Source: Paramacrobiotus metropolitanus | Taxonomy: Eukaryota; Tardigrada; Eutardigrada; Parachela; Macrobiotidae | DNA length: 64,000 nt | Direction: 5' to 3' | Assembly: GCF_019649055.1 (NCBI RefSeq) | Contig: NW_026570269.1 | Span: 558,001 to 622,000, forward strand | Shown: positions 12,099-55,595 of the stretch, one piece after another | How the letters are laid out: every line of letters starts with the position of its first letter | Position numbering within the stretch: position 1 is the first letter of the stretch | The notes under the pieces: generated by a model | What the model saw: the letters and a program-made list of their open reading frames with translations, nothing else | What the model was told of the DNA's origin: nothing | The model's database searches: none | Made by a program: the position numbers and the translations under genes

Positions 12099-15000
12099 AT
12101 GGGATGCCGGCAATGTGAAAAAATGTATTACAGCGTCGTTATCCTTGGATGCAGCCTGATAGCCATGCATACAATATCCGCTGACCAGTGCGAATTGCGC
12201 TTTGTCCTGCTAGCACCTACGGCCATGAGTTCGCTGCTGGTCAGAGAAATGGAACGCAGTCTGACGACCGTGCAGCGCCGGCCCAATACACTCTACCAGT
12301 TGGTGGATCTATCGGCTAATGTGTCGTCTGCGCCGCTCAGCGGAACAGGCGGGAGGGTAATTGTAGACGAGCCGGAAGTTGGCCGGTTGGCCAGTTATTA
12401 CTATGGAGTAGGAAAAAGTGCACCTTTTCTGGCACTTCCGCTGCTTAGCGAACCCATGGCGGTGGATGTGGCCGGCTTGGCCCGCGGTAAGGAGATGGCG
12501 CTGTAACTGTCTCGCCCACGTTAACAGCTTTCAGCTAACGCAGGGTTTTTCCTATACTGATTAAATTTGCATGCACAAATTCACGATTTCCCTTTTAATG
12601 CTAAGAACATGCTAATAAATTTATAGCAATATCCATATTTTATTTTGTTAAGCAATTGCCTTCTGGCGCCAGGATGATAATATTTGCATACGCGGTGCCT
12701 ACAAGGTCACTAAAATTTAAACAATATGAAAAATCGTAGAAAACAACTTGCAAATATCGTAAAATATCTAAAACGGAATGAATAGTATGCCTCTGTAGCT
12801 AGCTGGTCGCTATCGTACGAGATCTTATTGCAAGATGAACAAGATGCTGTATGGCATAACTTTTCATTTCAATGGTATACACAATATATACGTCAAACCA
12901 GTTAAGTGCATGAAGTAAAAACCATAATTAAGCAAATTGCCATTGCAATGTTTCATCTTGTATTGTTAGATATTCCCAGAAATTTAATGCTTTATACGTA
13001 TACCTGAAAACTGAAAGTGAACAACAGCTGTTTTTCATACGTACAAATAAAACTAATGAGTACGATCTAAGCGCGGTCACACTGGAGGCGGTGAATGTGC
13101 ATCATTCACCCATTTGTCTGCAACAAACATGCATATAATATGTAGATTTACATTTGTCTAAACTTGGCCAAATAATACAAATATGTCAAATTATCCCGGC
13201 TAAATGGAACTTATTGATTTTTCAAATTCTGTCGCATGAGCCCCTATCACCACAGTACGTATCCAATACAGTATTAGCAAATAAACGCGCATCATTGTTT
13301 TCAGAATGGCGAGTCCCTGTGATAAGGAGGTAAGTGCGGTGAATATAGCATATTGCTGAATGTTTATAAAGTGATTATGCTTTTCCATGGTGAAAATTAC
13401 TTCCTGTGCTAGTGTTTGGAGTAGTCGACGCAATTTGCGCCTGCCACCAGATGCCCTCGTGGTCAATAGTGAAATCGGATACATTGCCGACGTCGCTCAA
13501 GCCCTTCTTGCCTTCTTCCGACTGCACCTCTTCAGCAACGTTGCAATAATATGTGACGCCCAGGAAAAGGACATCTTCCTTCGACAAACCTGTGATTATT
13601 CCCTATTAGTCTTCAGACAAGAGAAATTCGATGTGATCTATGTGGAAATCCCGGAAAATCAACGCGGAAATGATAGATGTGGCGATGCGCTTCAGAAAGC
13701 GAAAGTTGCTGCGCGCGGTGAGCATCCTTTGCGTATATAGTAGATGTTGTAACATGTTGCGTTAGCTTTAGTTTACCCACTCCCGCAGATATTCCAGACA
13801 TGTCATTTCTTGTAATCAGTTAATACCTTCCGTGTTCTATTGATTCAACATTAATAAAAAGAGAGTTTACATGTTCGGCAAATAACCAAAATGACAAAAA
13901 TACGCTTATCATTTTCCTAGGAATTTCCTGAAGTAATACTGCAGTATAAGCTACCAGGTTCAGCTTTTGTATTACATTACATCGTTCCACAAGCAAAATA
14001 TAAATATAACATCGCGTGTCATTTGCTTTTAGCGTTTACTTTCGTATTGCCGGATGTGTTGTTAAAGTCATGCTTGGTAAGATATCCAAGGATTCTCCGC
14101 TATAACATGCCCAGTTTCCCTAACAGCCGTGTGTGTAGGAAAGTGCAGCACAAATGGGCTTTTCGGATGGAAGTTATGTAAGTGGAAAAAATGGCGACAC
14201 ATTATGAAAATTTTCTCACTAGTTTACCTAACTTTCGTTAGGTTTTTGTTGCGGTTAAATCTCCGACAATAAAAGAATCCTTACTTGCGACAAATACGCC
14301 AACAAATACATCGGCAAATACGGTATCTGTTTCTAGCCAGTCATTCTGAATCGTCATGTCTGTTTGTCTGAATTGCCATTAAAGCCTTCAATTCTGACTT
14401 CAGGGTTTATCAACCGTGCCACCGCCAACAAACCTTTTTTCTCAAGTATTCTTTGTTTATTCCAATTCGGCGGCACTGGACGACATTACGGAGATGTCAC
14501 AAAAACTTGCCAAAATTAAGATCAATCCAGCGCTGTTCTCACACCAAGTAAGTTGTCTCTCTAATGTACAACGCAACACATTGTAAATTAACGTTTGTCC
14601 CACTAAAAACCCCGTGCTCTGTAAATCGTTGCTGTTGCAGGAAATACTAACATTGGCGTCCGTTCAACGCACTATGGATTTATTTTCTAAGGTACCTTGC
14701 ACATGGATTCTGCTTGTGTATTTTCATCATGTAAAAAACTATTAAAAATTTAGTAACTGAAGCCGTAGCGATGCTTTGCGAGATATATGTTTTCATGAGG
14801 ATTTATAAAAAGAGTAAAGTAGTACCATAAAACCAAATTAAAATGAACCTATACAGGCTCTGGAGCAAGAACAGAGCCCAAAACAGTCCATTAACCACAA
14901 CACCTGGAACTGTTCCATTCCTGCATCCTATGTTTTTCTTATCCGCGGCATGCAAAGTGCACTTTTGGCGTCCAGAAGGGCCGCATCGAAATCCCTGGTG

Positions 15001-18000
15001 ACTTTCCAAAGAGTTGCCGCAGCCGACGCGGATGCTTCATTGGCGGTAAGGATTAGCTGAGCTCTGCATATTTTCGTTTGAGTTCCGGTACGAAGTTTGA
15101 CCGAGCGTTTGTGCGTCATTGTGTCTCAGAGCTTCAGAGCTTTTTCGGCCAAAAGTGCATCGGTAAAGAAATTCTAGTGCTGAAGACAACTGTAAGCAAG
15201 AAAATGAAATTAATTTTCCCCATTTTCCGATTTGTGTGCATAAATCTTTTTGTATTAATCACACAATTCGCATCGATTCATTTTTCGGAATTTTCGGGGC
15301 ACTCCGGCAGAGTTGTATCCCTTACGGCTACTTGTAAAAATTTACCAGGTTCTGCATCCAAGAATTATTGACTTTTTTGTCAACCTAACACTTGGAAAAT
15401 CTGTACACCTTAAATATACAGACGAAGTGCATATTTTGCTTATTCTGTATTAATTCTGTAAGATCAATGTCACGACCACGAGATTTTGTAGGTGTTTGCC
15501 GAATTCGATCCGAGTAGCGCGCAGGGACTGAATGTGGTGATGGACCGAGACACTTTTATTGCAACATGGCCGGGTGGTACTTTTCCGCCGCCTAACGTGC
15601 CCTTCTGTGGCTTCCGCAACGATGCTGATCAATGCCAAGCAGCAGGTATACCCATCCCATATTAGCTAGTTTTATAAAGCTTATCGGACAAAGTGAACGA
15701 CTGCAGCACCGATCGAGCAGCACCGTACTCTGTATAAGAACAACTGTAGTCGATCATCATAAATTTGTTCGATATTCATGCATAACTTAACATAAGGCAT
15801 AAAAATAAAGTGCTAGGTAAATGTTCCAACTGGGATAATGATCGAGGACATAAATTAGGCAAAATCTATCATGTATTGCTTACATATTTACATTACCTGC
15901 CTGGTTTCCAGATAATACCATTATGGCCATTATTGCCGCGCCTTGTGTTCTGATCATCATAGGCATTGCTTACTTATTGCACCAGCGGAAAAAAGAAGCC
16001 GGGTACGCAATATGTACAGTAGTAAAAACTAATGAAAACGGGGGTGACATTGACTTAAATTAAAATGCAACTACCTTAGAGAAGAAACCAAGAAACCGGC
16101 TGTAGCGGCAGAATCCAACCAATTCGAGCAGCTGGACCCATCCAAATGGGAAATCAAAGAAGAAGAATTACGTCCGGCGATTAACCAGACGATGGCCAAA
16201 TCGCTAAGGGCGCTGTCACGCATCTCCCTAAACGCCTCTGTCGTCGGCTCCACCGCAACGCAGATACAAAAGATGCAACCCGAAGTGCACATCTTTATGG
16301 GGCGTAATGTATGGGTCAAGTCCAGGGAATTGTCGTACAGTTTTGTTCCGGAAGGCGAAACACTAATCTATATTCAAAAGGTAAAACGGAGCTGAAATCC
16401 GTGGTGCTTACGTATTTAGCTTCCATAATTAAGCAAAAGGATTATTTAAGAAAATATATGATTATATACAATTTCGTTTGTGCAGAGTGCAGAGGACTAG
16501 TAATTATATCAAACTTGTACAGTACAATCTCGCAAGTTTTATATACGTATATCTACATAGTTTTTACACGTTATGCGTTACTGTGGTTAGGCACGGCGTC
16601 TCAATCACGCAAGTATGGCGCAGTTTTTGGGTGTGGTGCTATCAAGTGATCCCTTGGTGTACGAAATGAAAATGGTTATGGAATACTATCAACGAGGAAG
16701 CCTTCAAGATCTCATCGGACAGGAGGACATGGATTTTTCCTTTCCGCTGAAAGCCGTATTTATTCGTGACATTGTTGCGGTGAGCTGCATAATGCAACAT
16801 CTGAAACATAATACGACATGTGATTTGCACTACTAGGGTAGTCTTTTCTCGTTACAGGCGATGACCTTTGTGCACAATTCTTTTATTGCCTGCCATGGCT
16901 CACTAAAAAGCCCTAATTGCTTAATCAGTGAACGATTTACAATCAAGATTACCGATTATGGATTAAATGTCTTTCCTGTTCATCCACCAGCCGTTGAAGC
17001 CGATGAATATCTGTACCATGGGCTTCTGTGGACAGCACCGGAGATTCTGCGAGGACCGATCATTCGTGTGCGCAAGGGAAGCAAAGAAGGGGATGTGTAC
17101 AGTTTTGCCATTATTTTGCAAGAAATCCTCACCCAAACCGAGCCGTACTACGATTTCCAGACGAATTCTGCCTTATTGCCAAAAGGTCACGCACATGCGA
17201 GCCCGCACAGTAAAATGTCGTGTGCCTTGTCGTGTGTCGTGTCGTGTACTTCCTAACAGGCACAAACGTTTGCAACTTGCTAAGAGAATTTTTTTCGCAA
17301 AAACGGAAACAGTATTTTTAACTGGTGCATAAAAACGGTTCTAAAACAAAAAATCCTGTTAACTTGACACATGATAGGGTCCAGTGATACAATGATTCAG
17401 TTTAACGCAATCTACATAATAGGTTGTTTTTTTCCTTACATTCATTTTGTAATTTTATCTGGGCTCTATTAAAATTGAGTAATTTTCTTGTGCAGAAGTC
17501 GTCCACCTACTAATTCAGAAATCTGGAAAACCTCACCGTCCGGAAGTGCCATCTGATAAATGCTCACCGGAATTAATGGCCGTAATGCGCACATGCTGGG
17601 CGGAAAATCCCGCCGAACGTCCAACCTTCAAAGCGTTAGGCGCCACCCTGGACCGAACACCGGGATTTGCTGGCAAGCAGACCTACCTCGACTACATTCT
17701 GGGCAAAATGGAGGAGTACAATAACCAACTAGAGCACCGAGTGCGAGAAGCCACTTCCGGTTTGATTGAGGAAAAAAAGAAATCGGAGGAAATTCTTGCC
17801 CAAATGTTGCCTAAGTATGCATATATGCAGTTCCCACCTAGCTGCGCGCACATGACGTTGACAACGCTCGTACGTTTCACGGAATCGATCAAGGCGCTTA
17901 TTTATTTATGGTTTTCGATTAACAGGGCCATATTGGAAAAGTTCAAGCGGGGAATAATTATTGAGCCCGAGTCGTTCGACCATGTTACGTTGGGGATTAC

Positions 18001-19303
18001 CGCGATAATAGATTTCGCCATGATTGCCCACAACAGTACTCCGTACCAGATAGTGGCCTTCCTCAACGAACTTTTTATTAGATTCGACGCAGTTATAGAT
18101 CGTTTTGATGTCTATAAGGTAATATAGAATGAATGTTGGTATTTAAACCTGTCTGAGTTAATAAATGGTTATGCAGGTTGAAACGATTCAAGATTCCTAT
18201 GTGGTAAGGAACATTACAAAATGTTCAGTGCTATTTAATGCAGCCAGCGTAACACAGTACCATCATAATGGGATGACCTTTCTATTGTTCTGTTGTTTAA
18301 ATTAACTAGAAAATTTTAAAGCCGTGAATCGTGAAGCTCGTGTGAATGGAAAACACATCTATTACCGTAGCTTTGATTATCTGTGACCGTTGCAGATTGC
18401 TAGCGGGCTTCCAGATCGAAATGGTCGCGCCCATGCTTCTGAAATCGGTACTACTTCGCTCGATATGTTGGATACCGTTAAAACCATTAAGATCAAGCAT
18501 ATGGAGAATCATGATGTGGAGATGAAAGTGGGAATTCATACCGGTAATCTAAGGGCGATTCTCTTACGTCAGGCCATTGTGCTCAATGACCTTTACGTGA
18601 TGTGTCGATTATATCGATAAGCCTGTATCATAAAGTGCGCTTACTACCACAAAATCGTTGATAGGCATGCTGGCAGCCGGTGTGATTGGTTTGAAAGCAC
18701 CCAGATACTGTTTGTAAGTAATTCTAAGTCAAGCAGCACCGGCAATAAATATAACGTATTATTATGCAAGGGTCATGAATTGTTTCCTTAATAGATTTGG
18801 AGATACAATCAATACAGCATCTAGGATGTGCTCTACTGGCGAAGGTATAATGCACGAACTGAGATGCATGATTAGAAAAAGACATTTTCCATGCCCACAT
18901 TTTAATTAAACGGCGTCCTCTGTACAAAAATGCTCGAACTGTAGGCGCTGCTGCAATTCCAAAAATTTAACATGTAATTGTCTGCTTATATAATACTTCT
19001 ATACATACTTGGTTTTCAGCTCAACGTGTACAAATCAGTGAATTCACAAAATCCTTTCTGGAAGACTACGACAAAGATAGGTTTAGCATAGCCTTTCGCG
19101 GTGAAGCGGAAGTCAAGGTAATTAGTGATATTACCAAAGAGTGCATGCACCTGTGTGCGATAAGTACAATTATTAACAAACTTAAAAACTACTTTCATAA
19201 AAGCATGGCGGTTGATGCTGAAACTGTTAAATCTAACAGTTTGTATTTGCAGGGCAAAGGGAAGATGCGGACATTTTATATTGATAAACCAGGAAGGTCA
19301 TAG
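12099..19303 (+). CDS. Receptor guanylyl cyclase with a substituted catalytic metal site
   Basis: Twenty-four exons join in frame to about 1,115 aa. Exons start at 12099, 13305, 13413, 14033, 14139, 14242, 14404, 14641, 14857, 15132, 15492, 15912, 16080, 16493, 16591, 16858, 17496, 17926, 18177, 18396, 18665, 18795, 19020 and 19253. Order: signal peptide; ANF-receptor-type ectodomain ending PPPNVPFCGF; one membrane helix (about residues 495-515); kinase-homology domain with HGSLKSPNCL and ITDYGL; a linker helix rich in Glu/Lys (about residues 870-905); and the cyclase domain (FDHVTL, VETIQDSYV, PRYCLFGDTINTASRM). The guanine-selecting Glu and Cys and the NTASR motif are present. The first metal Asp of the usual FSDIVGF motif is Ala (about residue 937, codon 18002-18004). 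Exons at 13305 (25 bp), 16493 (24 bp) and 18177 (27 bp) are very small. AATAAA lies at 19795. Confidence 0.9.
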
Positions 19304-19913: not shown

Positions 19914-22900
19914 CTAAGCCGCGGCCATAACGTACTGTTCCCGAGGTGCTTCTTCGGCCGAGGACTGCAGTGTACCGCTATTCAAATGGAAGCGGTCAAC
20001 GCCGACTTCCTTCCAGATACTGACCAAATCATCCACAAATTTGTCCATCATGGGCTCCGTATGGAACGGAGTCGGAGCTAATCGAAGGCGTTCTTCGCCG
20101 CGCGCTACAGTGGGATAATTGATCGCTTGCACGTAGTGACCGAAGGTGTGCATCAGCCGGTTGGATACTTCCGTCGACAGTTTGGGATCGCCAACCTAAG
20201 ACACCAGATTGTATTGACTGGAAAACTGCAACACATTTTACGTATTGGCTCTGTGAACAATATGTGTATGAATTATAAAGAAACGACAGGCACACTGGTA
20301 AATTAAATCGTTGCTTACGTGGATCGGGATGATATGTGACGGAGTGCTCAAAGCCGGAATGTAAGCGGATTTCAGCGCATTACGAATGTATTTAACGTTC
20401 TCCTGGTGTCGAGCCCGTAATTGCCGGCCCTCTTCGGACGCCAGCACCCGGATGGCCGTCAGAGCTCCCACCAGAACGGTCGGGGGCAGCGACGTGGTGA
20501 AGATGAAGCCACTGGCATAACTACGAACGGTATCCACCAGAGTAGCGTCACTCGCAATGTAACCTCCAATATTGCCGAACGCTTTGCCTGCAATTGGCAC
20601 ACGCATATACACGTAATATAATCAATTACAAAACAATTTTTTTGAAAAGTCAGCGCAGATAGGTATATAATGTATGTGCAGATAGGTATATAAGCTTGAT
20701 TCTAAGGACGGACATGTGTTAACGAATGTTCGATGCGAAGTAGCGTAAAAAGAGCCTTGAAATAGTTCTTACCAAGAGTTCCGGAAATGATATCCATTTT
20801 GGCCATGCATCCGTCGCGATCACCCACACCTCCGCCATTATCACCATACAATCCCACGGCGTGTACTTCGTCCACGAAGTTCAATGCGCCGTGCTCGTGT
20901 CCAATGTCACACATTTTTTCTAGAGGCGTGATCGCACCTGCCCAAACGAAAAATATATATCAAACCATAAAAACCTCATGATAGGAAAATTCCTTAAAAT
21001 TACTTAACTTATGTGTACCGTACTTTTGCCATTGTCAAAAACTGAATGACAAGTATTTACCTGTCATACTATGGACCGTTTCGAAGGCCACAATTTTTGG
21101 CCTTCCTAGTTCAGAGTTGTGCAGTTTTTCCCGTAAATGTCCAGGGTCGTTATGGCGGAAGACATGCTTAGGCGCGCGACTGGTTCGAATACCATGGATC
21201 ATGGATGCGTGATTGCCCGCGTCGGAATAAACATGCACGCCTAAATACGCAGAAATTGGCAGATGCTGAACAGAAGTGAACCTTGCTAAAATTTTTACGT
21301 TATTTATATTTCATAAAGAGGTGCTTTTTACGGGATGCAGTACTATTACTTTCACCCCGACCATTTTTCGTCGACCACCACCAACAACAGTTACCGTAGA
21401 ACAACTCTGTATTTCTGGAATAATGTTACATAATGCATACCGGGGAGCATTTGACCCAGAGTGTGAAGAGTCGACTCATTGGCCACATAACACGATGTAA
21501 AAAGCAACGCCGCGGGTTTCTTATGCAGTTTTGCCAGTTCGCTTTCCAGTTCTTCGTGCATAGTGGAATTGCCGCTGATGTTGCGTGTTCCTCCAGCACC
21601 GGAGCCATGCTTCGACAAGGCGGTACTGAAAAAAAGAACGGATGTACTTTTAGTTGAGAGATACGTATCAAGAATAAAAACTTATGTATGCGCATTGCAA
21701 AAGACACTTGCTTTTTTTGCAGGTAAAAAGCCTTTTGCGCTGCCAGGTTATTATAATGTAATTACACTTCGCACAAGAAACTTGATAACTATTCCCGAGT
21801 AATCTTTAGAAGCAATCTCCCTGATTTATTCCAGACAGACTGCACGCGCCAACACACATACATACCTACATCTGATCTTGGACAATGTTCTGCTGCTCCC
21901 AGCAGTGGGAACTGGACTTTGTTACACTTTTCACCGACTTTTGCGACTACCGGCCGTTGGCGCCAAAATGTGTTGCATATTAATACCATATACATTGACC
22001 AGTTTAATTTATCCAAACGGTTTACAGGTAAATACATACATCAGTAACGCAAATATTGCAGTGTACGTACTGTTTTAAACGTTTATAAAATCGTACCAAA
22101 CACGTATTACAACGACCAACAGAGAAAATGGCTCTTTCTATTGGCATTAAAACACACTTAAACTATAACGATCGTTTCCAAATGTTGCAAAGCTTATTGG
22201 ATCAGTGCATGAATACGGTCACAATCCAAGTGTACATCATAATAATAATTATATACAGTTAAATTAGAACGATAAATGGGCTGTTGGTTTGTTGCGTTAC
22301 AAATATGTGATGACGTATAGATATCAATTAAATTACAAAATATTTATAAATTTAAAGTCCGCTATCTAGAAGCTATAATAATTCTTGCAATAAACTCACT
22401 TTAGGGTGAAACTTCCAAGAAAAAGATGGACTTTTTTAAAACTGCTTTTACCTGACAGCTTCCAGTACTTTTGGATGACGACTCATCCCTAAGTAGTCGT
22501 TGCTGCACCAGACAGTAATGTTCTTCTCATCTCCGGTGAATTCGCGTCCATAGGGAAAATTTTGCGCACTACGATTGACCTTTTTAAAGATGCGATACGA
22601 ATGGTCGTTCTTCTTGTCATCAATTTTCTTTTGCATGAACTTTCCGTAATCAAACGCTTGGGTGTTGTTAAAACTGAGCTGTTGTTTCTTTGATTCGCTT
22701 TCCACTGCTTTCGTTTTCTTCTGCTCTGGATCTCCATAATCTTCCACGCTAATGACCTCTTCGTTCTTAACACGCACCACGCTGATGCTGTTCTGCGTCA
22801 AGAAAGGGCATTTGCTGCACGCCGCCGGATTCGTCGCCAGTGTGTTGCTGGACACTCCTACAAATTAAACATTTCTGTAAATTCAAAAACATAATGCTAG

Positions 22901-30142: not shown

Positions 30143-33100
30143 TTATTGTCCACGGGAAACGCCCTCGGCTTCTAACTCGCTTAAAAATCGCACCACTCTC
30201 TCTTCTCTCTCCACCTGCATCATAGCGCTGCACATGGCCAGCAGTTTCTTAATTCCAATCCATAATCTCTGGTTCTTCAGCTGTTTGCCGATGTACTTCA
30301 AGTCATCCGCAGCGAAGATGTCCAAATTCTCTAACACCTTCACAATCTGATCGCCAGTGGAGATATTGCTTACATGCACTGTCCGCGTGAAGATGGGCGC
30401 TAAACGCAGCTCCTCCAACACGCCTCGGCATGCGGTGGTCCCAAGTACCAGCAGTTTGTGGTTCTTTGGTGGAGGATCGTTCATCAGTACCAGGAGGGCT
30501 TGTAAAACCAAATTACTAAAACGCGGACCAATCGGAGCATAGTCAATCAGGCCCTCGATATCATCGACTAGGACACAGGATAGCTCCGACTTGTACGCAT
30601 CGTCAAAGACTTTCTTAATAGCCATACATTTGGCCGTTTCCGTGAAGCCGATCATATCGCGGGGCGTGCATACTTTCATAAACGGGAACTGAGAGTCTTT
30701 GCAGATTTTCGCGGCCAGGCAGGATTTTCCGGATGAAGGAGCGCCTTCCAGCAGCAGACTGATGAGGCCTTCGCGGCTGGATGCTTTGACGGTTTGAATG
30801 TACAGATTGCCCAGCTCCAGAACAGCAGTCACTGAGTCGTCGTACACAATAATGCCATTCTTTATGTAACGGTCCAGAACTTCTTCGTTAAGACCAAACG
30901 CCGGTTTAATGTCATGCTCCAAGGCATGGAGAAAATCGTTGCGATTGACTTTGAATTTATCAAGTGCATCCTCATCCACCAATGCCTAATACAAGCAAAA
31001 TGCACAGAAATTTTCAAGAAAACAACTTTAAAGTAAGCTAATAAATCATTCAATAATACTGTAAATATTACCAGAGAGCTCAGTTTTGCATTTGCTTACC
31101 TTTTGGCCTACTTTGACTAGCCGATTCATTGCCACAGACTGGGCAGCTCGCACCAGACCTTCCAGTTCCGCACCGCTAAAATTCTTTGTTTTTTCCGCAA
31201 GCTCTTTAATATCCACGTCCGGTCCTAAATTGTTCTGCTCTCGCATACGAGCGGTGTGAATATTTAAAATCTGCACTCGGCCATACTCGTCCGGCAAGCT
31301 AATTTCCATCTGGATTTCCATGCGCCCTGGTCGAATCAGAGCCTCATCGATCATATCTTTCCTGTTTGTCATGCCGATCACCAGAATATTGTTCAACTGA
31401 TCCACACCATCCATTTTAGCCAGCAACTACATCAGAAAAAAACTTTCGATCAAAAAAAGGGACGCACTCTTCCCGAAAATTGCTCAATTCGGAGTCAAAC
31501 TGATCTCTAATGCGAATTATTTAGCGGTGATTTGTACCTGATTTACGATGGTGTCATGGACAGCTGTATTACCCGCAACAGACCCTCGAGCTTTGCAAAT
31601 GGCATCAATTTCATCGAAGATGATGATATGCAGCTGACTGTGCGGACCCATGCGTTTCTCTTCTTCTTCAGCGGCAGCGAAGAGCTTTCGAATGTTCGCC
31701 TCCGATTCACCGACATACTTATCCAAAATTGACGGTCCGCTCACAATCTGCGGCTCCCTGGCATTCAGCATTTTGCCAATTTGGCGGGCGATCAAAGTTT
31801 TACCGGTTCCGGGTGGACCATACAGCAGCATACCGCGACAATGTTTAATCCCTAATTTCTCAATGAGATCAGGCGGTACAACGCGGGAAGCAAATGCTCG
31901 TCGAAAGATGGTGGAGAATTCCTTATCAAGCCCACCGATGCCCATTTTTTCGAAGTTCCAGTCAGGGTTCAAGATGTTCGTACGCTGAACACGCCTGTAA
32001 AATCAGAATTCAACTCTTGAACGAATGTAATGGAATCAGATAAGTTCACTATGCTGCTCAGCAGAGACTACCAAAGTACTAACAGATCAATACGTGAATG
32101 GCAAATCTTCCATAATTTCGAAAAGATGATTATTGCAATACACAACTACATGATACGTGCAATATGATATTTGATAACACCGATGCATCATCGCTTCGCA
32201 AAACAAACTGCAAAGAATGAGTACTTTAACGCAGACCATAGCAATAACCGTTAAAATAAGTTTTATGAAGTAGAATGATTCGTATAATCTTACAATTAGC
32301 AAATGGTATATAAGCTTAATAACTAAAGATGCACGTCAAGAACTACGAATGTTTATAGCGGATTAACGCGCACGGACATTAATTATTCAACTTGCGTATA
32401 TCGAATTACGCTTTGCACAGTCGTTAAATTCGCTTTCGACACGCGTTTAAGCGTTGTGCTTCATTTTATCCAAAACATTTTCAACAGTATCACGGATAAT
32501 CTGTATGTAAAACCTGCTGAAATAATGTGGCACCCCTATTGATCTATCAAGCATGGCCAAAGCCAACACACCGCATCATGTTCAAGCTAAGGCAAATAAA
32601 GACTTACGCAAGCGATTTGCCCGTCAGGGTAATAACAGCTCCCTCAGCCTTCTCGAAATTGACTTGGATATTGGGTGTTGTCACTCCAATCCCGTCCGCT
32701 GGCTGTATCAAATACCATCAAGAGCTAAGCTGATTTTCAATGCATTTTATAGTAGACATCGTGACTTATTACGACTAGAAGTACTGTAGGACTAGGTACT
32801 TACCTCCGACGATTTTGCCTTCTGCTTGTCATTGCCGGTTACGGCGTTCAGATCGATAACTGTAAAATATCACAATCATCAAATTACTGCAAGGACAACC
32901 GTTCACTGATGGAATCCCATAAAATGAGGAACAACTTCTCAATCCCGCAAACAAGACGGGACGCTCAGTACTCAGTCAACATAATAAACATTTCCAGATT
33001 ATCATTTAATTCGATCGTATTTTGAAATCTAAAAGGTCAATCAAACCGAAGTAGTCTAAATGTTCACAAAGTCTAAATGTTCACAAAGCAGCAGATAAGG

Positions 33101-36162: not shown

Positions 36163-37660
36163 ATGGCAACAGAAATGAACAGAGACGAGAGTGATCGCTG
36201 CATCCAAATTGCCCAGCGAAGTATCGAAGCAGGTGATCTCGAGAAGGCTGTTCGCTTCCTGGAAAAATCGATAAAACTGTTCCCCACTTCACGTGCCCAA
36301 GGTAAACGCTTTTTCCGCTGAATTTGCTTTAATCGGCTACATGTGCTGCTCATTAGATCTCTTGGACGAGGTGGCCCAGCTTCGTCAGGAGCGACAGGAC
36401 CGTCCGGATGACAACCAGGAGAACAATCCGGACGAACCGTCCCCTGAGCAGCCATCACGATCTCGTTCCTCCTCCCACCCTCGTCAGCGTCGTAAACCTC
36501 CGGCCTCTCCGGAATTTGCTGAATCTCGTCCCGGATCGGATACTCACAAAGAGTACACCGACGAACAGAATCAGGCTGTGATCCGCGTGAAAAAGTGTAC
36601 GACATTCTATGAAGTGCTCCAAGTGGAGAAGACCAACTTCTCCGAAGCGGTGCTGAAAAAGCAGTACAGAAAATTGGCCTTAGTATTACACCCGGATAAA
36701 AATAAAGCGCCACATGCTGGTGAGGCGTTCAAGATTGTCGGAAAAGCTTACGCTGTGTTGTCAAATCCCCAGAAAAAGGTGGATTATGACACCCATGGAG
36801 AAAATTACGAGACAACGCGGTATGAACAATCATCCGCGCGCCGTACGGGTCGACGACGGTATTACCGTAGTGGGAATTTCATGTTCTACGAGGACGATGT
36901 GTCGGCCGATGACATCTTCAATATGTTCTTCGGAACGGGGTTCCAGAGGTTCAATCAGGAGGCGGACGATGACCGGGCCGACTATTCGCGTCAAGGCAAT
37001 GCTGGTGGAGGCCAACAGCGCCAAACCAGCATCGTGACGTTGCTGTTGCAGTTGTCCCCGCTGCTCTTGTTCCTTGGGTTAAGCGCCCTGAGTTCCTGGA
37101 CATACACGGAGCCCATGTTCAGTCTCCATCAGTCGGTCAAATATCCCAATCCGAAAAATACTCGCGATTTAGGAGTAAGATTTTACTACAAGGACGACTT
37201 GGACAAGCTGACCAGTAAAGATTGGTATAATATCGAGAGAAATGTGGAGGAAGTGTATATGAGCAATTTGAAAGAGAACTGCATGCGGGAACGGGCGTAC
37301 AAGGAGAATGTTATCTGGCGAGGAAAGTAAGTAGACATTGTTTTGACTGCAGCTTAAGCTGAATTTTACGGTATTTAATAGAAAAATTTGATGCGGATGT
37401 AATTTCACCTGGTGTAATAATTTTGTGATCATATAGTTGTATTACGAACAGTGACAGTGAAATATAGATATTACATCTTTAACATTTTGGATCGGCTCTG
37501 GGTTTAGTGGGTGACACTGCAGTAGAAATCGTTCAAGGATTTGAATTTCCTTTTCAGGTTGTACGGCGATGTGAAATTAATCAACAAAGGCAAAGACTTG
37601 ACCACGCCATCGTGTGACAATTTAGCTTCTGCATATGAAAAATTAGCGCATGCAGCTTGA
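36163..37660 (+). CDS. DnaJ homolog subfamily B member 12/14-like ER membrane co-chaperone
   Basis: Three exons, 36163-36301, 36357-37326 and 37558-37660, join to 403 aa. The N-terminal helix block (RDESDRCIQIAQRSI, AVRFLEKSIKLFPTSRAQ) is typical of DNAJB12/14. A charged linker follows. The J domain starts at about residue 127 (FYEVLQVEK) and holds HPD at about 158-160 (LHPDKNKAP), so it should stimulate HSP70. A Gly/Arg/Asp-rich part with DDIFNMFFGTGFQ follows, then one membrane helix (about 271-294) and the DUF1977 C-terminal domain (LGVRFYYKDD, NIERNVEEVYMSNLKENC, TPSCDNL). Family members sit in the ER membrane with the J domain in the cytosol and act in quality control of membrane proteins. 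ATG at 36163 is chosen; 36175 is a second in-frame ATG. Confidence 0.93.
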
Positions 37661-42470: not shown

Positions 42471-44822
42471 ATGTGGCAGATGCAATTGATTTTCCTTAAT
42501 CTGCTATTCCCTGCTTTTTTTATTTCCGTGGAATTGCTGGGGAATGCGGCAGCTGTACGTCGATCCAAGGTACCAAAAGGTAATTCAAGTTTTGCAGTTA
42601 ATTAAAGGGAGACTTTCTGTAGAGGTACATATCTCCAATCTGCGCATCCAGTGGTAGGCACAAAGCGGCATATTTTGCGGTAAATCCGCAAGTTTCATTA
42701 TTGTTCACTTTCGCAGTAAAACTCGATATTTTCTAGGATGGCAACGACGGTTGGATAAGGACATTTTCAATAAACTGCGCAAACGGCTTGTGTGCACGCG
42801 AACGGAATTGCGAAAAACGGCGCAATTATTCCAGGGCGATATTATCATTGATAGCGCCTTTATGGATGGGTCGCTCACCTTTACCGGTGAACTGCAACCC
42901 GAACAATATTGGCCCAGAGGAACACCGGTGCCTTACAAAATATCTGACAATTTCGGTATAAAGCAGATGATCACAAACACATACCTGTGTGTTGCTGCGC
43001 GTAAATTTAAAATAGCTGAATTATAATAATACTGGTACCTGTTCTTCGTATATCTGTAGTATGCTTCATAGGACTATTAAGAATCTCATTACAGAAATAG
43101 TTGTTTTGCATAAATATTCACAGTCGCATTCCAGATGTGTCACAACAAATCATGATACGGAAAGCAATGGATGATTTAACACGGCAGGTTTCGGGATGCA
43201 TTTATTTTAAAGAACGTGACGATGAGCCGGATTACATATACATCGTCTACCCTCCAGTTAGGTATGAAGCTCTGATGATTATTTTAAATGGCTTTGTTAT
43301 TATTTATCAAGAATTGAATTAACCATTGTTTTCCCTCAATGTTTATCGTTCTGCTACAGCACAATGTGCAGCTCCATAATTGGACGGCGGACTGGTGAGC
43401 AGGTACTGAATCTTGGAGAACATTGCATGTTACATGGGACTATTCAGCACGAGCTCATGCACGCACTGGGCATCTTTCATGAGCAATCGCGCCCCGATCG
43501 CGATCAACATATCGTCATATTTGAAGAGAATATTATACCGGGTAAATAACGTTGCATAAAAAAAAGTGGTACGACCAGCGTGAATGCTGCTTTTCAGTTG
43601 TGCGGTATTATGAGTATAAACTTTCTAAAAAACAATAGGATACAGCACTGCACCTAACAAAATTAATTGTGAGTACAGAAATATATAGAGCCTTTTGTAG
43701 TTGTTTTGAGTTTTCTTACTTAAGCGAATGCATCGAACAGGAACGCAAAGCAACTTCCAAATCCTTCCCAAGATGGCAACATATGGCGTTCCTTACGATA
43801 TCGGCTCCGTTATGCACTATGGTTGGAATGACCTTTCTGTTGACTCGGAAAAACCAACGATTCTGCCTCGAGACGAAAACGCTAAAGCTAAAATGGGACA
43901 ACGGGACGGCATGACAATGTACGATGCAGTTAAACTGATGGTCGCTTACAACTGTCCAGTGCCGATGTCGACTACAATGGCGTCAACCGCGCCGGTATCG
44001 TCGACGAGAACAACACTACCTGCATCCACAAAGAAGTCCACAGGTGCTTTGAGTTTGCCGGTAATACAGATTGATGACATTTCTGCAACTGAATGCAGAA
44101 GTCTTAACAGCAGAAACTGTGACGTTTCCTCGCAGTCCAACGATTGCAAAGATTCTATCCTACACATTGCCTGTGGAATTTCGGCAACAAACGATGAAAT
44201 TCAGGGAGTTTTCCGAAAGTTTGCAACTCTCCGCAAAAGTCGCCCCTTGACGATAGAAATGCAGGGCAACCGAGTGCTAACCGAACATCTTTTTGAGTCG
44301 GTTCGAAATTATGTTATTGAATTAACAGTTGGCTATCATAATGGAATCACCGGAAATATTTTAAAAAATTTAAACCTCCCACATCTTCTTGGGCTGGGAT
44401 TCTGGCAGTGTCAAAATATTAATATTCCGGATGACGCGTTGTATTCATACAAGAATCTGCGAATGCTGGAATTCGGCGACAGCACAGTTGATTTCATGAG
44501 TCAAACCGCAATATCGAGTTTACCAAACTTGAAATTATTAGCGTTGGAGTATGATGTGGAGCCCCCCTTTCGGTTATCACAAGCAAAGTATATATGGAAG
44601 TTACACTGCAGCTGCGATTATCAATGGCTCCGCGACATTCTAATTGATAAACCGTTTTTGATAGCGGAAAAACAATGGGGCGAAATACATCAGTACGGAA
44701 ATCGCGGAAGTATACCGTATACAAAAAAGAGTATTTTTATCCCAGTTGATTGTGCCAGAAGTACAGAGAGGGCAATTTATTATAACGCTGTGGGTACGTT
44801 CTCGACAAATGTGCAGTGTTAA
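42471..44822 (+). CDS. Secreted astacin metalloprotease with C-terminal LRR-like module
   Basis: Five exons, 42471-42579, 42737-42955, 43135-43261, 43360-43541 and 43741-44822, join to 572 aa. A signal peptide (MQLIFLNLLFPAFFISVELL) leads into a prodomain with FQGD, the likely Asp switch that blocks zinc. The catalytic domain has HELMHALGIFHE (zinc His at about 182, 186, 192), GSVMHY with the Met-turn and Tyr ligand (about 237-239) and the closing VAYNC, so it should be active. A Thr/Ser linker (about 287-316) follows instead of the usual EGF/CUB domains. The last 245 residues show leucine-rich periodicity (LNLPHLLGLGFWQC, SLPNLKLLALEYD) ending in LHCSCDYQWLRDIL, which resembles an LRR C-cap. 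That whole module is in the last exon. Astacins process matrix, cuticle and growth factors. Confidence 0.9.
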
Positions 44823-48000: not shown

Positions 48001-48945
48001 AATTAATGAACAAACAGATGCCCTTCGAAGCCAAGCGCTAGACAGGTAAAGTTCCAATAGAAAACTTAACTGTTAATATCCAAGTATAAGTTACGTATTT
48101 ACAACACATTTATATTATACAAGCCGGAAAAGTTACAGAATGGCTACCGTCATTGGTCAAACTTACGTCGCCTCCTGGCCAATATTTTGTGAAAACCTTT
48201 CTCCCTTGTTGTTGCGCAACTTCCCAAATTGGATGACCTTTCCAGAAGTCACTAACTGCATGACTCGGTCGATAGTTGACAAAGAACGAGGTGTTGTCCG
48301 CTGAATAAAATGTCTGGTCTATTATTCCGTGTGACTCGGGATACAGGCCTGTGACGATGGAGTAATGATTTGGATAGGTGCTGGTAGGGAACACCGGGCG
48401 CATGTGTTTGGCGTGCAGCGCCTGCTGAAATAGGAACGCAACGGAAGGAACGTGAGGAACAAAGCGCGTAGCAAATCCATCCAGGGACTGCACCAGTAAG
48501 AGTGGACGGTCAAATCCATACCTGCGCAAAATAAAATTATCTTGCAACAGCTAGATTTCTGTTGGCTTATGCTGCACGCGCTATACTTACAATTAGTATT
48601 ATAACATATAAAACGTAACAACACTACTACTGTATTGGTTTTACGCACTGGGCAGTTACAGGTTCTCGTATGCATACTGACACGGTATATTAAAAACACG
48701 GGTATTAAAAGTTGAATTACTCCGACTTTTTTACTCAAATAATATGTCAACGATAATCTCCGTATATACTTTTTTGCACAACGTTCAAAATTTGGAGCTC
48801 CCTGGCTGACTGTTTCCTGCCAGGAATTACCAGATGGCGATTGCCTAGAATCGTACGACGACACGCGCAAGCTGGACGGATTTGCCAGTTCACCGCAAAA
48901 CACGAAACAAACGATTTGCAGAAATAAACTTGATACTCCGATCAT
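45030..48945 (-). CDS. Ectonucleotide pyrophosphatase/phosphodiesterase (ENPP1-3 type)
   Basis: Ten exons: 48945-48770, 48521-48167, 47966-47810, 47600-47395, 47254-46700, 46519-46310, 46183-46045, 45909-45705, 45616-45445 and 45185-45030. They join to 776 aa. ENPPs hydrolyse phosphodiester bonds of extracellular nucleotides or lysophospholipids with two zinc ions. Visible site residues: Asp in SLDGF; the Thr nucleophile in PTSTYPNHYS; Asp and His in EPDSSGHA (split by an intron); Asp-His in LSDHGI; and His in MHGWDN. A nuclease-like C-terminal domain follows (HTNIVPMYRSFYEEYW, PTHFYLVAWRQR, DVERLTGF). The N-terminus is a signal peptide plus a short Ser-rich stretch without the somatomedin-B domains of ENPP1-3. 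The Ca-binding Asp loop expected in the nuclease-like domain is not conserved (near GPAWDRKPPFG). Confidence 0.93.
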
Positions 48946-51853
48946 CTTATAATGCCCAGAAGGAATAAAACTTTTGATGTATCAGCTCAGTGTTTAACGC
49001 ATCTCTAATCGGAACACCCCTTGATCGGTTGGACATGTGCCTTAATTTCCAGAGTTCAGAACTGATGCTGCGCAGTATGAATTCGGTTTCGGATCCAGAT
49101 TTGCTTCGAACATGTCGATCGCCGCAGTTACTATGAGTATGAACTGTAGCTGCATGGATCGACAATATCAAATGAGTCACGCAATACGTGCCAATTTATC
49201 CCGCTTGTCAGAATAATTGTAAAAACATATAAAACACTAGCGCATACCAAATAGATGCACTGTATCTGTCTATTTGCGCGTTATACGAATATCTGTATAT
49301 CTATATATCCGTATGTCTGTCTGACATTTGCGTGGGATAAAAATGTAACTTTGGTGTTCCACAATTTCCGTACGACACCAAAAAACAGTAATAAAATTTT
49401 TAATTGAGCGCAAGTTAAAGCCTTCGAGCATTCTGGCATTCGAGGGTTTTTGGTGGTAAGAAGTTAAGCAAGTGCAAAAATGTTCTACGTACGAGTACAA
49501 TAGAAGCACCGGTTGTCCTTGGACTTTTTAAACTGCAATACGTATCGACTATTATGCATTGCACGTGCTTTTTAAGTATGGTTGCACCGTCAGCGAATTC
49601 AGTCGTACGTTTATGTGATTTCTCCAAACCCTTTCTCGCAGCAGTCTTTTGTGTAGAAGTAGTGAAATCAAATCCCTTGTAGACATCCGAAATATTGCGT
49701 CGTGCGTACATTGGTGCGTTCTCAAGGTTCGAAGACCTTGATATGAAGATGCATAGAGTTTATGACAGCATATTTAATTTAGCTACAAAAATCTTGCTTC
49801 AACGTTGCACAAAAAAAAATCGGAAACCTTCCGTAGAGGTATGAATATACTAAGCCAATGAACTGATCGGTGACCTTTCAACTGATGGACTGTTCGGTGA
49901 CCTTTCAGCCCTTGCAGTAATTGCAGACGCATGTTCCAAACTGCCAAATCCCGTCACACCTACATCGGTCGTCACAGATTCCACGCTTGGATCGAAGTAG
50001 CTCCATTGCGCTGGGGTCATCTTGATTCTTGAATAGTCGCAGAAATCACAGTCATCCACAAGAACGATACAACTACACAGAGAATGAAAAAGCAGCTTAG
50101 GATCTTCGCAAAGGCCATGATAAAGTCTAGACCGTTCGTTTGTAAATCCTTGCAGCACGTAAGTACTGCAACCTTTCCTGTGCAGAAGTTAATGTGGTAG
50201 GCCTACGCGGTACGATCCGAATGCCTGACAGTGGGCCTGCACAGTATTATGTAACGTGATGGTTCTTTGATGCCGGTCTTTCATACGCAAGCAAAAATTT
50301 TTGGAATGTTGGGCTACCAATTGTTTGCTTCTAATGTCTATATAATGTCCCGACCTCCTAATTACGCGTCATATCCGGGCAGTTAAGCAAGGATAGCTGC
50401 AAAATTTGTACGAAAGTTTTTTAGCGACATATCTTCAATACGTAAATGTGATATGAACACTTCCTGAATTTATTCAGCAAAAGCGATTACCGACGAGATA
50501 AATGACTTCGACGAACCGGGTTTTAACCATGAATTCCGCAAACTTACCGATACATATAATCATACTTTATATTTGCCTTTATATCAGGCATATCGATACC
50601 GGTACCTGACCGGCTGACCGTAACTTAATAATTATTATTTACTGCCGATTTGTTTAGGTCGTAACACCGGAGCGACCCCCGTGGACTGATTGTAAGGACG
50701 ACATCCGCATTGGCAGAATAGTTACAGAATACTTTCAAAACGTTTTCTGCATGCTGACCATGCGGCAGAAGATGTTAATAATTATTATCTGATCATACAG
50801 ACACATTTCGAGTTTAAAGTTACATATTTAGGGTGCAGTCAGTTTATGATAACGATGCCCTTTCATGCGGGTCCAAACAAGCTGCCTGCACAAAATCGCA
50901 AAGGAACTGCCTGCGCCTCCAACGAGGCTTTGACAAATAATTAAGATGAAGTAATAAAAAACGCAGGTGGAGGAGTACTATAATTATTTCAAATCATATA
51001 CATCCGATATATAAGTAATAAATAACATTAGCAAAACCCAGCAAATTATATGTTTAAGCCCAGAATTTATTTAAAAGTTATCGTTGCAATTTAGACTGCT
51101 GCTACGATCAATACGAGAATTTATGTGGTCAACATATAGGCAACCTAAGTTCAATTGCAATATTCATAATTCAATGGAGCAAATAAATGTCCAGTGCATA
51201 CTGATATAATATCAAGAATCAGAATTCGTTCTTTTACAGAATTCATTCTTTCATTTGGCATCCTTATCAATAATTCGTACTTATCGTTTCTCGTTAACTC
51301 TGAAATGTTATGCCAGGTGTAAAACATCCGGCCATGCATATCGTTACGTAATGCAGATTTAATTACAGTACCTGCAGTGCGCACTGTATTGTGTGTACAA
51401 TATCTACGATCAACCGGTTATACGGGTGACTACAAAAAGTATGGTTTCACCGTTCACGTGTGCAGTATACAGTTAAAGTACCGTAACTGACGTTACTGAA
51501 CTTGGAGTTGAAGTCCATATGCCGATACGGCAATACCGATACGGTATTATGCCGATACGGCAATACCTACTGTAGCGTTAAAATTAGTTGGTGTGACTTT
51601 ATCGATCATGGGAGTCTAGTGTCGCCTCCGATAAATTTACGGTGTTGCACCACGCGGTGCATCGACTCCAAGCTGTCAAAACTGGATCACGATAGAGGAA
51701 AAACTGTGCTATAGCTACACTGGGTGGTTTCCGGAAAAAGCTTTCCAACACCAGGTTTTGGTCTACTACATGATCTGTGTGCCAGCTGACTGGTGGCAAA
51801 ACTGTGAAAATCTTAAGCTTTATACACATCGCGCGCGTCTGTTGTTAGTCAGT
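48946..51853. other. No gene recognised
   Basis: This lies between the divergent ENPP (-) and GNAT (+) genes. Minus-strand frames at 49415-49711 and 49850-50158 are open for about 100 codons but match no family and have no exon pattern. A short duplication TCGGTGACCTTTCA occurs twice near 49865-49907. Confidence 0.4.
51519..51567. repeat. Short direct repeat, period 30
   Basis: ATGCCGATACGGCAATACC occurs at 51519-51537 and again at 51549-51567. Between them is CGATACGGTATT, partly an inverted version. It lies about 290 bp before the GNAT start codon. Confidence 0.8.
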
Positions 51854-52777
51854 ATGGAATATCCTGAAATTTTCAATGTCGACGAGGATGAATTCTTGAT
51901 TGGCGCAGTCCGTGATCCATTTGATCTGATTCAGCTAAACAAACTGCATTCATTATGGAACAGCCAAGGCGCCTTGGAATGGTCATCCGGTGTCAACGAT
52001 TTTCCTCTCTTCAGTTTGATAGATCCAGATGGGTGTTTGGTAGGAAAACTTAACGGTCGCATCGTCAGCATTCTCATTGCGATAAATTACTCCAAAACTA
52101 ACTCATTCATCGGCGCTTTCATAACGGATCCCAAACTACGAAATAGGGGTTACGGCACGCGCTTGTGGGAGGCTGCTTTGGCGCATTGCGGCAAACGCTG
52201 CATTGGTATGTACGCCGTTGAGACAATGGTTAAGCGGTACCAACGCGATGGATTCCAGTCAATGGGAAAGGTACTAATCTACAAGATTGGTCAACTGGAT
52301 CGTTTTGATGATCCAGAAGATGACAGCATCACGGATGCCAACACGGTGCCACTCCAGGAATTGACTGTATTCAATCAAAGCACCGGTCTGGCTCATCTGC
52401 CGGGAAATTTCCTGCAAGCGTGGATGCGGCAGCCGGGAGCCGTTGCGGTAGCCTATAAATCACGAGACGGACTCTTGGGATATGGAATAATTCGTCGGTG
52501 TTATGCCAATGGAATGTGGAAGATTGGACCGTTGGTGGCGACGGATGGCAGAGCTGCGGAAAAGATCCTCCATGTTCTGCTCAGCAGAGCACCGGATGCC
52601 CGTGGTGTCCTGATGGAAGTTTTCGCTGACAATAAGCCGGCAGTTGAATTGGTAGAGGGGTTATGTGGCACCGTGCTGGAGGAAAATGTGATAATGTACC
52701 GCAGTATTACTGGCAGTGAAGTTCACTCAAATTTTACCTCTTGCATTTATGCAGTTACATCTGGTGTGATCGGTTAA
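51854..52777 (+). CDS. Intronless two-domain GNAT acetyltransferase (DUF1248/YitH type)
   Basis: A single exon of 307 aa. The ATG at 51854 (MEYPEIFNVDEDEF) is chosen because the frame upstream has no other ATG. Domain 1 (about residues 20-150) is a GNAT fold with the acetyl-CoA pyrophosphate loop RNRGYGTRLWEAA after a beta strand (SFIGAFITDP). Domain 2 (about 175-290) resembles the second GNAT-like domain of YitH/HolE proteins (GLLGYGIIRRCY, GPLVATDGRAAEKIL, EVFADNKPAVELVEGL). Proteins of this layout occur in bacteria and as families in some invertebrates; substrates are poorly known. AATAAA at 52911 gives a plausible polyadenylation site, so it looks like an expressed animal gene rather than contamination. 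Confidence 0.85.
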   Translation: MEYPEIFNVDEDEFLIGAVRDPFDLIQLNKLHSLWNSQGALEWSSGVNDFPLFSLIDPDGCLVGKLNGRIVSILIAINYSKTNSFIGAFITDPKLRNRGYGTRLWEAALAHCGKRCIGMYAVETMVKRYQRDGFQSMGKVLIYKIGQLDRFDDPEDDSITDANTVPLQELTVFNQSTGLAHLPGNFLQAWMRQPGAVAVAYKSRDGLLGYGIIRRCYANGMWKIGPLVATDGRAAEKILHVLLSRAPDARGVLMEVFADNKPAVELVEGLCGTVLEENVIMYRSITGSEVHSNFTSCIYAVTSGVIG

Positions 52778-53735: not shown

Positions 53736-54533
53736 TCACGCTTTATTAACAAAACCATTATCACTTAAACACCAAATGTTTAGTTTCGAAGCGACCGCCT
53801 GTTTGCAGTTAGGGTAAGGTTGTTGCAACAGTTTCCACTTCGGTCCCGGCGGCCACTCTGGTGTCCCAACACCGAGCCAGCGTTCTCCCGCATTTATGTA
53901 CAAATACAACCGTTTCCATGCGTCTGTCGCCACAATACGGCTGTTATCATACGCATCAATCCGAGTCATCTCCATATCCACCTTCGGCATCACTTCCCAG
54001 TCGGTGTCATTCCATCGCAGCACTTCCTGATTCCGTCTTACACACCACACACTGGCGTCTTTACCCACGGTCACCCACTGCGCATAACCCGCGAATTCCC
54101 GCCAGGAATCATTGCCATAATGCCAGATTGTATCGTTGCTATCGACGGCCATAGCCTCATACTGGTCGAGTGGGGATATTTGTACTAGTTTCGATCCGTT
54201 AAAAGTCGCTATGGTGCCCATCACTGTCCAGTTTTGCCCGACCATCCGCCGTACTTCACCGTCAACGGTGACGACCCAGACGGAATTGTCGAATCCCACA
54301 CCGACGTTCTGCATTTTATTCTGATATTTCTCAGCATCCACCCAAGACCAGTCGTGTAGTCCCCATACCCAACGCCACAGATTCTTGTCATCCGTTACAC
54401 ACCATACTTGATCATCCCGCGCAGCGATCTGATCGCATAAACGCGGCATACGAGTCCATATTTGTCCGCCCGTCTGCTCCAGATGGGTCGTAATGTAAAT
54501 CATGGCAATTAGAAGTCTGATTAAGGAATGCAT
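53736..54533 (-). CDS. Secreted tectonin-repeat lectin-like protein
   Basis: A single exon of 265 aa. A signal peptide (LIRLLIAMIYITTHL) is followed by about five to six Trp-rich units with the tectonin pattern, for example DDQVWCVTDDKNLWRW, NSVWVVTVDGEVRRM, DTIWHYGNDSW, ASVWCVRRNQEVLRW and LNIWCLSDNG. Each unit would be one blade of a beta propeller, as in fish-egg lectin, tachylectin-1 and TECPR proteins. Such secreted forms bind bacterial sugars or LPS in innate defence. Several N-x-S/T sequons are present. The function here is inferred from the family; no ligand is indicated by sequence. Confidence 0.8.
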   Translation of the reverse strand: MHSLIRLLIAMIYITTHLEQTGGQIWTRMPRLCDQIAARDDQVWCVTDDKNLWRWVWGLHDWSWVDAEKYQNKMQNVGVGFDNSVWVVTVDGEVRRMVGQNWTVMGTIATFNGSKLVQISPLDQYEAMAVDSNDTIWHYGNDSWREFAGYAQWVTVGKDASVWCVRRNQEVLRWNDTDWEVMPKVDMEMTRIDAYDNSRIVATDAWKRLYLYINAGERWLGVGTPEWPPGPKWKLLQQPYPNCKQAVASKLNIWCLSDNGFVNKA

Positions 54534-55595
54534 GATTGAAATGAATGTAAGTAGTTTTATTATTAAGCGGTGATATAAGAGTAAAATCAGCGGGAAATGC
54601 GGTAGATCGATGCTCAGTCGCGTATCAACATCCGCACCATTTGGCTTGCGTAAAAGGTGAATGTCATAATCTTAATTTGGTGTTCTAAGCAAAATGATTA
54701 AAAAAAATTTCGTTCTCGGCGAAAAAGCATCGTAGAAAAATTTTTCTTCCGGCAGTTTGCTTGTAGTCATACCCAGTTCTCTTACAGTATTACTTCGCGC
54801 GTTAGCAGTACGTATGTACTGTACTGTACAAGTACAGTACTTATGGTTACAAAACAATACAAGTATATTATACTGTAGCCTGTAGGTGCAATACATTTCA
54901 CATTGTATACTAAAATATACTAACATTGAAATACGTAAAAAATGCTAACATTATTTACCAACATTAAAGTACGTAAAAAATGCATAATATCACCGAACAC
55001 TATTATTGCGTTTAGTAGTGATATTATGATAATGTGAATGTCTTCAACAATAAAAATAATGCATCTCTCATTTATATTGTACAAATTAATCTAACAAGAA
55101 GTTCATCAACAGCTGCGTAATGTTGTAAGACATGTGGACATTAAATTAAATTAGCAAATTTCCAGATTGTACAGTATTCGAACAATTGTTATTTATTATG
55201 CAGATCACCGCCTATTTCAAACACACACGTATAGGTGCTTTTTTCAGAATTTTATTGCAGTAGATACATATCTGAAACCGGCTTATTAGATAGTCCCGTT
55301 ACTGCGCAAGGACGTAGCAAAGTGTATTGTACAAGTACATTGTACACAACGTCGCCGACCTGCTTGGCCTTGCACCATTTAACATTTTTCTCGCTACTGT
55401 CTCTTTATTTTACCAGTGGTACAATTATTTTATAATAATTAGAAACTCAGCAATTTTTACAACATCAAAATTTCATTAAACTTTCTGCTCCTTCCGTCGT
55501 TCCCATTAACGATGCCGCGTTACCACGCTGTATCTCTAGTGACAATTAGATCTTTGGCGTAAAAATTCATGAGAACGGGTTTCGCGTGGTTGTTG
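54534..55595. other. Intergenic, no gene recognised
   Basis: AT-rich sequence upstream of the tectonin-type gene. It contains short ACTGTACTGTACAAGTACAGTAC-like palindromic runs near 54815-54842 and repeated AAAATGCTAACATT-like words at 54910-54985. No coding signal is seen. Confidence 0.4.

Follow-up and report, generated by a model that had tools for sequence, protein, structure and literature searches.

What can a receptor guanylyl cyclase do once the first of its two metal-binding Asp residues has become Ala? The catalytic sites of class III cyclases sit between two domains, and both sides are needed, from different domains: one cyclase domain provides the two metal-binding Asp residues and the phosphate loop, and the other provides the Glu/Cys pair, the ribose-binding Asn, and the transition-state Arg. 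The question is raised by a gene on the forward strand of a 64-kb stretch of DNA, the whole of which was analyzed and is called the window below.

We modeled this receptor guanylyl cyclase gene as a coding span of 12123–19303 with 21 exons and 1052 codons plus a stop, free of internal stops; the initial annotation had proposed a 24-exon frame, a count that the open model does not reproduce. All 20 introns of the model are GT-AG, a rule that was imposed when the boundaries were picked. In-frame GT-AG joins were enumerated for the gene's first half and then selected by eye. Between 13717 and 14547 there were 26 in-frame options with two inserted exons and 45 with one, at most 41 of the latter being listed, and the choice was made by fit to known receptors; across 15045–16380, the first of eight frame-keeping joins was adopted. 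A dynamic-programming exon search over the same half was set aside, because it broke the extracellular region into short exons judged to be spurious. A missing kinase-homology exon was suspected between 16380 and 16591, and the alignment to GC-A passes through this interval without needing one. One extracellular junction is ambiguous, since 14139–14177 with 14404 and 14139–14181 with 14447 are both in frame and give different loops, which could be alternative splicing or uncertainty of the model. The features of the gene, together with the other genes recognized by Pfam in the window, are as follows.

12123..19303, forward strand: coding span of the receptor guanylyl cyclase (21-exon open model; Pfam)
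12123..15645, forward strand: exons 1–9, with the start, an apparent signal peptide (read by eye), and the extracellular domain
15912..16002, forward strand: exon 10, with an apparent transmembrane segment, NTIMAIIAAPCVLIIIGIAYLLHQRKK (read by eye in the translation)
16080..17814, forward strand: exons 11–14, with the juxtamembrane part, the kinase-homology domain (HGSLKSPNC, DYG), and the coiled-coil/signaling helix (GC-A and GC-C alignments)
17926..18118, forward strand: exon 15, where the cyclase domain begins, with ITAIIDFA replacing FSDIVGFT (GC-A and GC-C alignment)
18002..18004, forward strand: GCG (Ala) codon at the position of the first metal-binding Asp (alignment)
18177..18203, forward strand: exon 16, VETIQDSYV, which keeps the guanine-selecting Glu and second metal Asp and has Gln for the Gly before that Asp
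18396..18543, forward strand: exon 17, with C-terminal MKVGIHT and Lys at the position of a triphosphate Arg
18665..18844, forward strand: exons 18–19, APRYCLFGDTINTASRM, with the guanine Cys, the ribose Asn, and the transition-state Ser and Arg kept
19020..19303, forward strand: exons 20–21, completing the cyclase domain with VKGKG, in which the phosphate Lys is kept, and carrying the stop
20241..20621, reverse strand: aminotransferase I/II
30146..30985, reverse strand: NSF-type AAA ATPase
36275..37327, forward strand: DnaJ with DUF1977
43710..44819, forward strand: astacin
48113..48550, reverse strand: phosphodiesterase/nucleotide pyrophosphatase
51635..52774, forward strand: GNAT acetyltransferase
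53739..54671, reverse strand: tectonin

The spliced protein matches the Pfam families for the guanylate cyclase domain (E 3.3e-52) and the kinase-homology domain (E 1.1e-31). In phmmer comparisons, a part that starts where the kinase-homology domain ends and takes in the complete cyclase aligns with GC-A, for which a structure has been solved (E 1.3e-86), and with GC-C (E 3.2e-66). The kinase-homology domain itself aligns with GC-A (E 6.6e-41) and GC-C (E 1.1e-25). Hence, a class III cyclase domain is present, as both Pfam and the GC-A match indicate, and it is preceded by a kinase-homology domain and a signaling helix. The extracellular part is less readily recognized: the Pfam ANF_receptor match lies below the cut-off (E 0.015), and the sole match to GC-A found for this part is a weak one (E 0.62) to the Pro-rich juxtamembrane stretch at the end of exons 1–9, which resembles that of GC-A. 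The gene had been described as otherwise intact, with ligand domain, helix, and kinase-homology domain; the open frame, the helix, and the kinase-homology domain bear this out, but the ligand domain is only weakly discernible at the sequence level. No haem NO-binding domain appears among the five Pfam families listed at E ≤0.1, and an HNOBA match (E 0.015, below the cut-off) is confined to the helix.

The kinase-homology domain carries HGSLKSPNC and a DYG motif between 16858 and 17185; according to PMC8045692, the presence or absence of basal activity in a receptor cyclase is believed to be reflected in its D(F/H/Y)G motif. A 113-codon open frame at 16308–16649 crosses one of the gene's introns in a frame different from that of the gene and is probably due to chance. 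Adjoining the gene on the reverse strand, a 250-codon stop-to-stop frame (9629–10381) is rich in Ser, Thr, and Ala, looks mucin-like by eye, and seems to have a membrane helix in its C-terminal part. Pfam gave no match for three of the ten other frames tested in the window.

The replacement itself lies in exon 15 (17926–18118), which is bounded by cag| and |gtaata, joins both neighbors in frame, and encodes AILEKFKRGIIIEPESFDHVTLGITAIIDFAMIAHNSTPYQIVAFLNELFIRFDAVIDRFDVYK. As the initial annotation had it, ITAIIDF falls under the FSDIVGF of GC-A and GC-C, gap-free in the phmmer alignments, and the codon at 18002–18004 is GCG, placing Ala at the first metal Asp. The same alignments corroborate its reading of the remainder of the site, in which the second Asp (VETIQDSYV), NTASR, and the guanine-selecting Glu and Cys are retained and Gln replaces the Gly before the second Asp. 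The loss had been presented as that of one Asp; the Asp is indeed lost, but the change is not confined to one residue, for the cyclase domain has other residues in place of the +3 Gly, the +5 Thr, and the 'RIG' Arg as well. The window contains no Ns, and to reach GCG from an Asp codon (GAT or GAC) requires two substitutions. These two base changes, together with differences from GC-A at five of seven metal-side sites, mean that the Ala is not accounted for by a single base-call error. An alternative exon carrying FSDIVGF in cDNA, and reads with Asp at 18002, had been named as findings that would overturn this assignment, and neither has support in this genomic sequence. Two patterns for an FSDIVGF-like motif had no match in the six frames of the 64-kb window, and the introns flanking exon 15, of 111 and 58 nt, are too short to hold an alternative exon of 193 nt. 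The upstream one of these introns (17815–17925) is a multiple of three in length and stop-free in the reading frame, so that its retention would add 37 residues between the signaling helix and the cyclase without a frameshift.

To place these replacements within the catalytic site, we scored 14 positions, comprising the residue lists published for soluble guanylyl cyclase (sGC) and the guanine Cys, with GC-A as the reference. In the parts of PMC7289801 and PMC3591389 that supply these lists, sGC alpha contributes D486, D530, V488, G489, F490, T491, and R574, and sGC beta contributes E473, L542, N548, S551, R552, and K593. Compared with GC-A, the window protein keeps two of seven sites on the metal/triphosphate side, two of the five changes being conservative (Val to Ile and Arg to Lys), and all seven on the guanine/ribose/transition-state side. 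Thus the pattern expected of half an active site is observed, with the metal side incomplete and the guanine/transition-state side complete. GC-C keeps 14/14 sites, including 7/7 on the metal side. Scores on the metal side and the other side are 4/7 and 6/6 for sGC beta1 and 7/7 and 3/6 for sGC alpha1, in human and Manduca alike, 6/7 and 0/6 for the C1 domain of AC5, and 1/7 and 4/7 for its C2 domain; the denominators of six arise where the Lys site was left unscored for want of letters (five of the nine rows), and the low adenylyl cyclase scores on the base side are in part due to adenine taking the place of guanine. The first Asp is missing in four of the nine rows, namely the window protein, both sGC beta1 subunits, and AC5 C2, and the same four rows have no Arg at 'RIG', with Lys in the window protein, Thr in each sGC beta1, and Lys in AC5 C2.

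A count over the whole domain gives a similar picture. GC-A and GC-C agree in 107 cyclase columns; 71 of these are kept in the window protein, distributed as 4/12 in the metal-side motifs, 22/23 in the other motifs, and 45/72 elsewhere in the domain. Fisher tests gave p 0.00016 for metal-side versus base-side motifs and p 0.019 for the metal side versus all other shared columns, values that are descriptive because the sequence was already known when the motifs and scored sites were picked, because neighboring sites of one motif are not independent, and because the references were two receptor cyclases. Furthermore, among the catalytic elements listed for membrane cyclases in PMC5461267 (two Mg-binding Asp, the guanine-selecting Glu and Cys, the ribose Asn, and two triphosphate Arg; the list covers seven mammalian members), five of seven are kept, the first Asp being Ala and one Arg being Lys. 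The Arg change alone says little, since Arg at this position is not universal among cyclases: the Cya2 cyclase has no equivalents of R925 and C946 (PMC5461267).

Because the changes sit on the metal/triphosphate side (2/7) and the other side is intact (7/7), a partner-dependent receptor is the best-supported reading. Judged from sequence, this would be a half-site receptor subunit, able to complete one active site when joined by a metal-competent partner cyclase, and we put this at slightly better than an even chance. Specifically, a homodimer would have two poor sites, each lacking the first metal Asp and having a changed phosphate loop, whereas pairing with a metal-competent receptor cyclase would produce one complete site in the manner of sGC alpha/beta, to which the window protein would give its Glu, Cys, Asn, Ser, Arg, and Lys. 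From the one-sided pattern we infer dimerization with another receptor and activity of the resulting pair, under a ligand whose nature is likewise conjectural. The initial annotation had suggested a pseudo-cyclase that dimerizes with active partners; its partner dimerization is what the contrast of 2/7 with 7/7 best supports, but the term 'pseudo-cyclase' undersells a protein that keeps half of its active site. Among the observations that count against half-site pairing, the second metal Asp is kept, the ROS-GC1 mutant described below retains part of its activity, and no second cyclase that could serve as partner was found in the 64-kb window, where six-frame motif patterns had no match and tblastn with the part from the juxtamembrane region to the end gave matches outside the gene of E ≥0.67.

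A close catalytic parallel is sGC beta1. In both human and Manduca sGC beta1 the first metal Asp is likewise lost (Gly is found there), the second Asp, Glu, Cys, Asn, Ser, and Arg are kept, and the phosphate Arg is replaced, by Thr in beta1 and by Lys in the window protein. PMC3591389 describes the human catalytic beta homodimer as inactive and beta as active with alpha: neither the alpha2 nor the beta2 catalytic homodimer had significant activity, and the mixed domains were active. Unlike the window gene, which has a kinase-homology domain, sGC is a soluble haem protein (PMC3591389), and the window protein matches GC-A (E 1.3e-86) far better than it matches sGC beta1 (E 8.4e-36). Its phosphate loop is also more degraded than that of sGC beta1, with Gly changed to Asp. 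In sGC alpha1 the one-sidedness is reversed relative to the window protein. The C2 domain of AC5 resembles the window protein in the absence of the first metal Asp (Ser), in Lys at the phosphate Arg position, and in keeping Asn, Ser, Arg, and Lys, but differs in that the second Asp is also lost, adenine-type Lys/Asp stand in place of Glu/Cys, and the domain belongs to the same chain as its C1 partner (both domains were matched in 8sl3_A).

Among membrane receptors, GC-A and GC-C share with the window protein the order of kinase-homology domain, signaling helix, and cyclase, and are 52% and 43% identical to it, respectively, over 184 aligned cyclase columns, but both keep 7/7 metal-side sites. 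Mammalian receptor cyclases are called obligate homodimers in PMC8045692. The same review mentions a number of C. elegans receptor cyclases without such catalytic residues, and PMC5225109 calls ODR-1/DAF-11 an obligate heterodimer. DAF-11/ODR-1 and other proposed obligate heterodimers are thus alike in kind, being receptor cyclases said to be without GTP-binding or Mg-coordinating residues, which a partner would supply (PMC8045692, PMC5225109); the likeness is drawn from these review descriptions, and both reviews lean on Morton 2004 for receptor pairing in C. elegans. Residue loss and obligate pairing are not tightly linked, since the R. globosum rhodopsin cyclases RGC1, RGC2, and NeoR are described in PMC8815786 as obligate heterodimers in which RGC1 and RGC2 keep all relevant residues.

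The alternative that fares best is a non-catalytic receptor, which would bind ligand and partners, produce no cGMP in any pairing, and serve as a decoy, as a scaffold, or as a dominant-negative subunit. In keeping with such a role, the phosphate loop has lost its Gly and Thr and the first metal Asp is gone, and an inactive heterodimer has a precedent in MsGC-beta3 with NO-sensitive sGC subunits, going by a title in the reference list of PMC1435932. However, a receptor of this type would have no evident reason to keep 7/7 guanine/ribose/transition-state sites and 22/23 shared columns, and we regard it as unlikely, if a serious contender.

A homodimer with reduced or metal-shifted activity is a less probable alternative, one that we consider doubtful; it would act through the remaining Asp, or through the Asp at +3 plus water. 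The second Asp is kept, and in ROS-GC1 the substitution of Ala for the first Asp removed 71.3% of basal activity in COS membranes, leaving about 29% (PMC5461267). That mutant is not fully dead, and the window protein still has its second Asp, so a homodimer of weak activity is conceivable. Active homodimers of sGC beta subunits have also been reported (PMC5225109). Against this stand the alteration of 5/7 scored metal-side sites together rather than one, and the inactivity of the human sGC beta1 catalytic homodimer although its second Asp is also kept (PMC3591389). The initial annotation had offered the Asp three residues on as a substitute ligand, a proposal that is disfavored. The +3 Asp of ITAIIDF stands where sGC alpha has G489, a Gly whose backbone N formed a hydrogen bond with an oxygen of the GTP phosphates during 73.9% of a simulation (PMC7289801, from a table with merged columns). 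Since the Asp replaces this phosphate-contacting Gly, its carboxylate would sit beside the phosphates, and a rescue of metal binding by this residue is unlikely.

We consider it very improbable that the gene is decaying on its way to a pseudogene. The lost residue is present in GC-A, GC-C, and sGC alpha1, and the extracellular domain is weakly similar to known ones, as decay might produce, but 1052 codons remain open over 21 exons with GT-AG introns (boundaries having been so chosen), the Pfam cyclase match is strong at E 3.3e-52, and the changes are concentrated on one half of the site. Scarcely credible is an artefact of sequencing or assembly, or an overlooked FSDIVGF exon, for which the single genomic copy leaves room, but which the two base changes from Asp to GCG, the several linked changes, the lack of Ns, the absence of matches to the two FSDIVGF-like patterns in the window, and the short flanking introns all oppose.

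Receptor cyclases that have lost a metal-side residue and would be expected to rely on a complete partner are an already known kind, and the principle of such pairing has been published for sGC and proposed for some nematode receptors. Our literature search found no report tied to this gene, a result that carries little weight; in viral contigs, 14 stretches fit a pattern, and none encodes a relative. The observation on the gene in the window is correct and illustrates this known kind fairly cleanly. More tentatively, and as a possibility rather than an expectation, it may represent a dedicated guanine-side membrane receptor subunit, in which the alpha/beta division of sGC would have been reproduced independently and cGMP would report that two receptors are present together, as in a coincidence detector. 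If the pairing is real, the output of the receptor would be set by whichever other cyclase the cell makes, and receptor cyclases could therefore signal combinatorially rather than as fixed homodimers.
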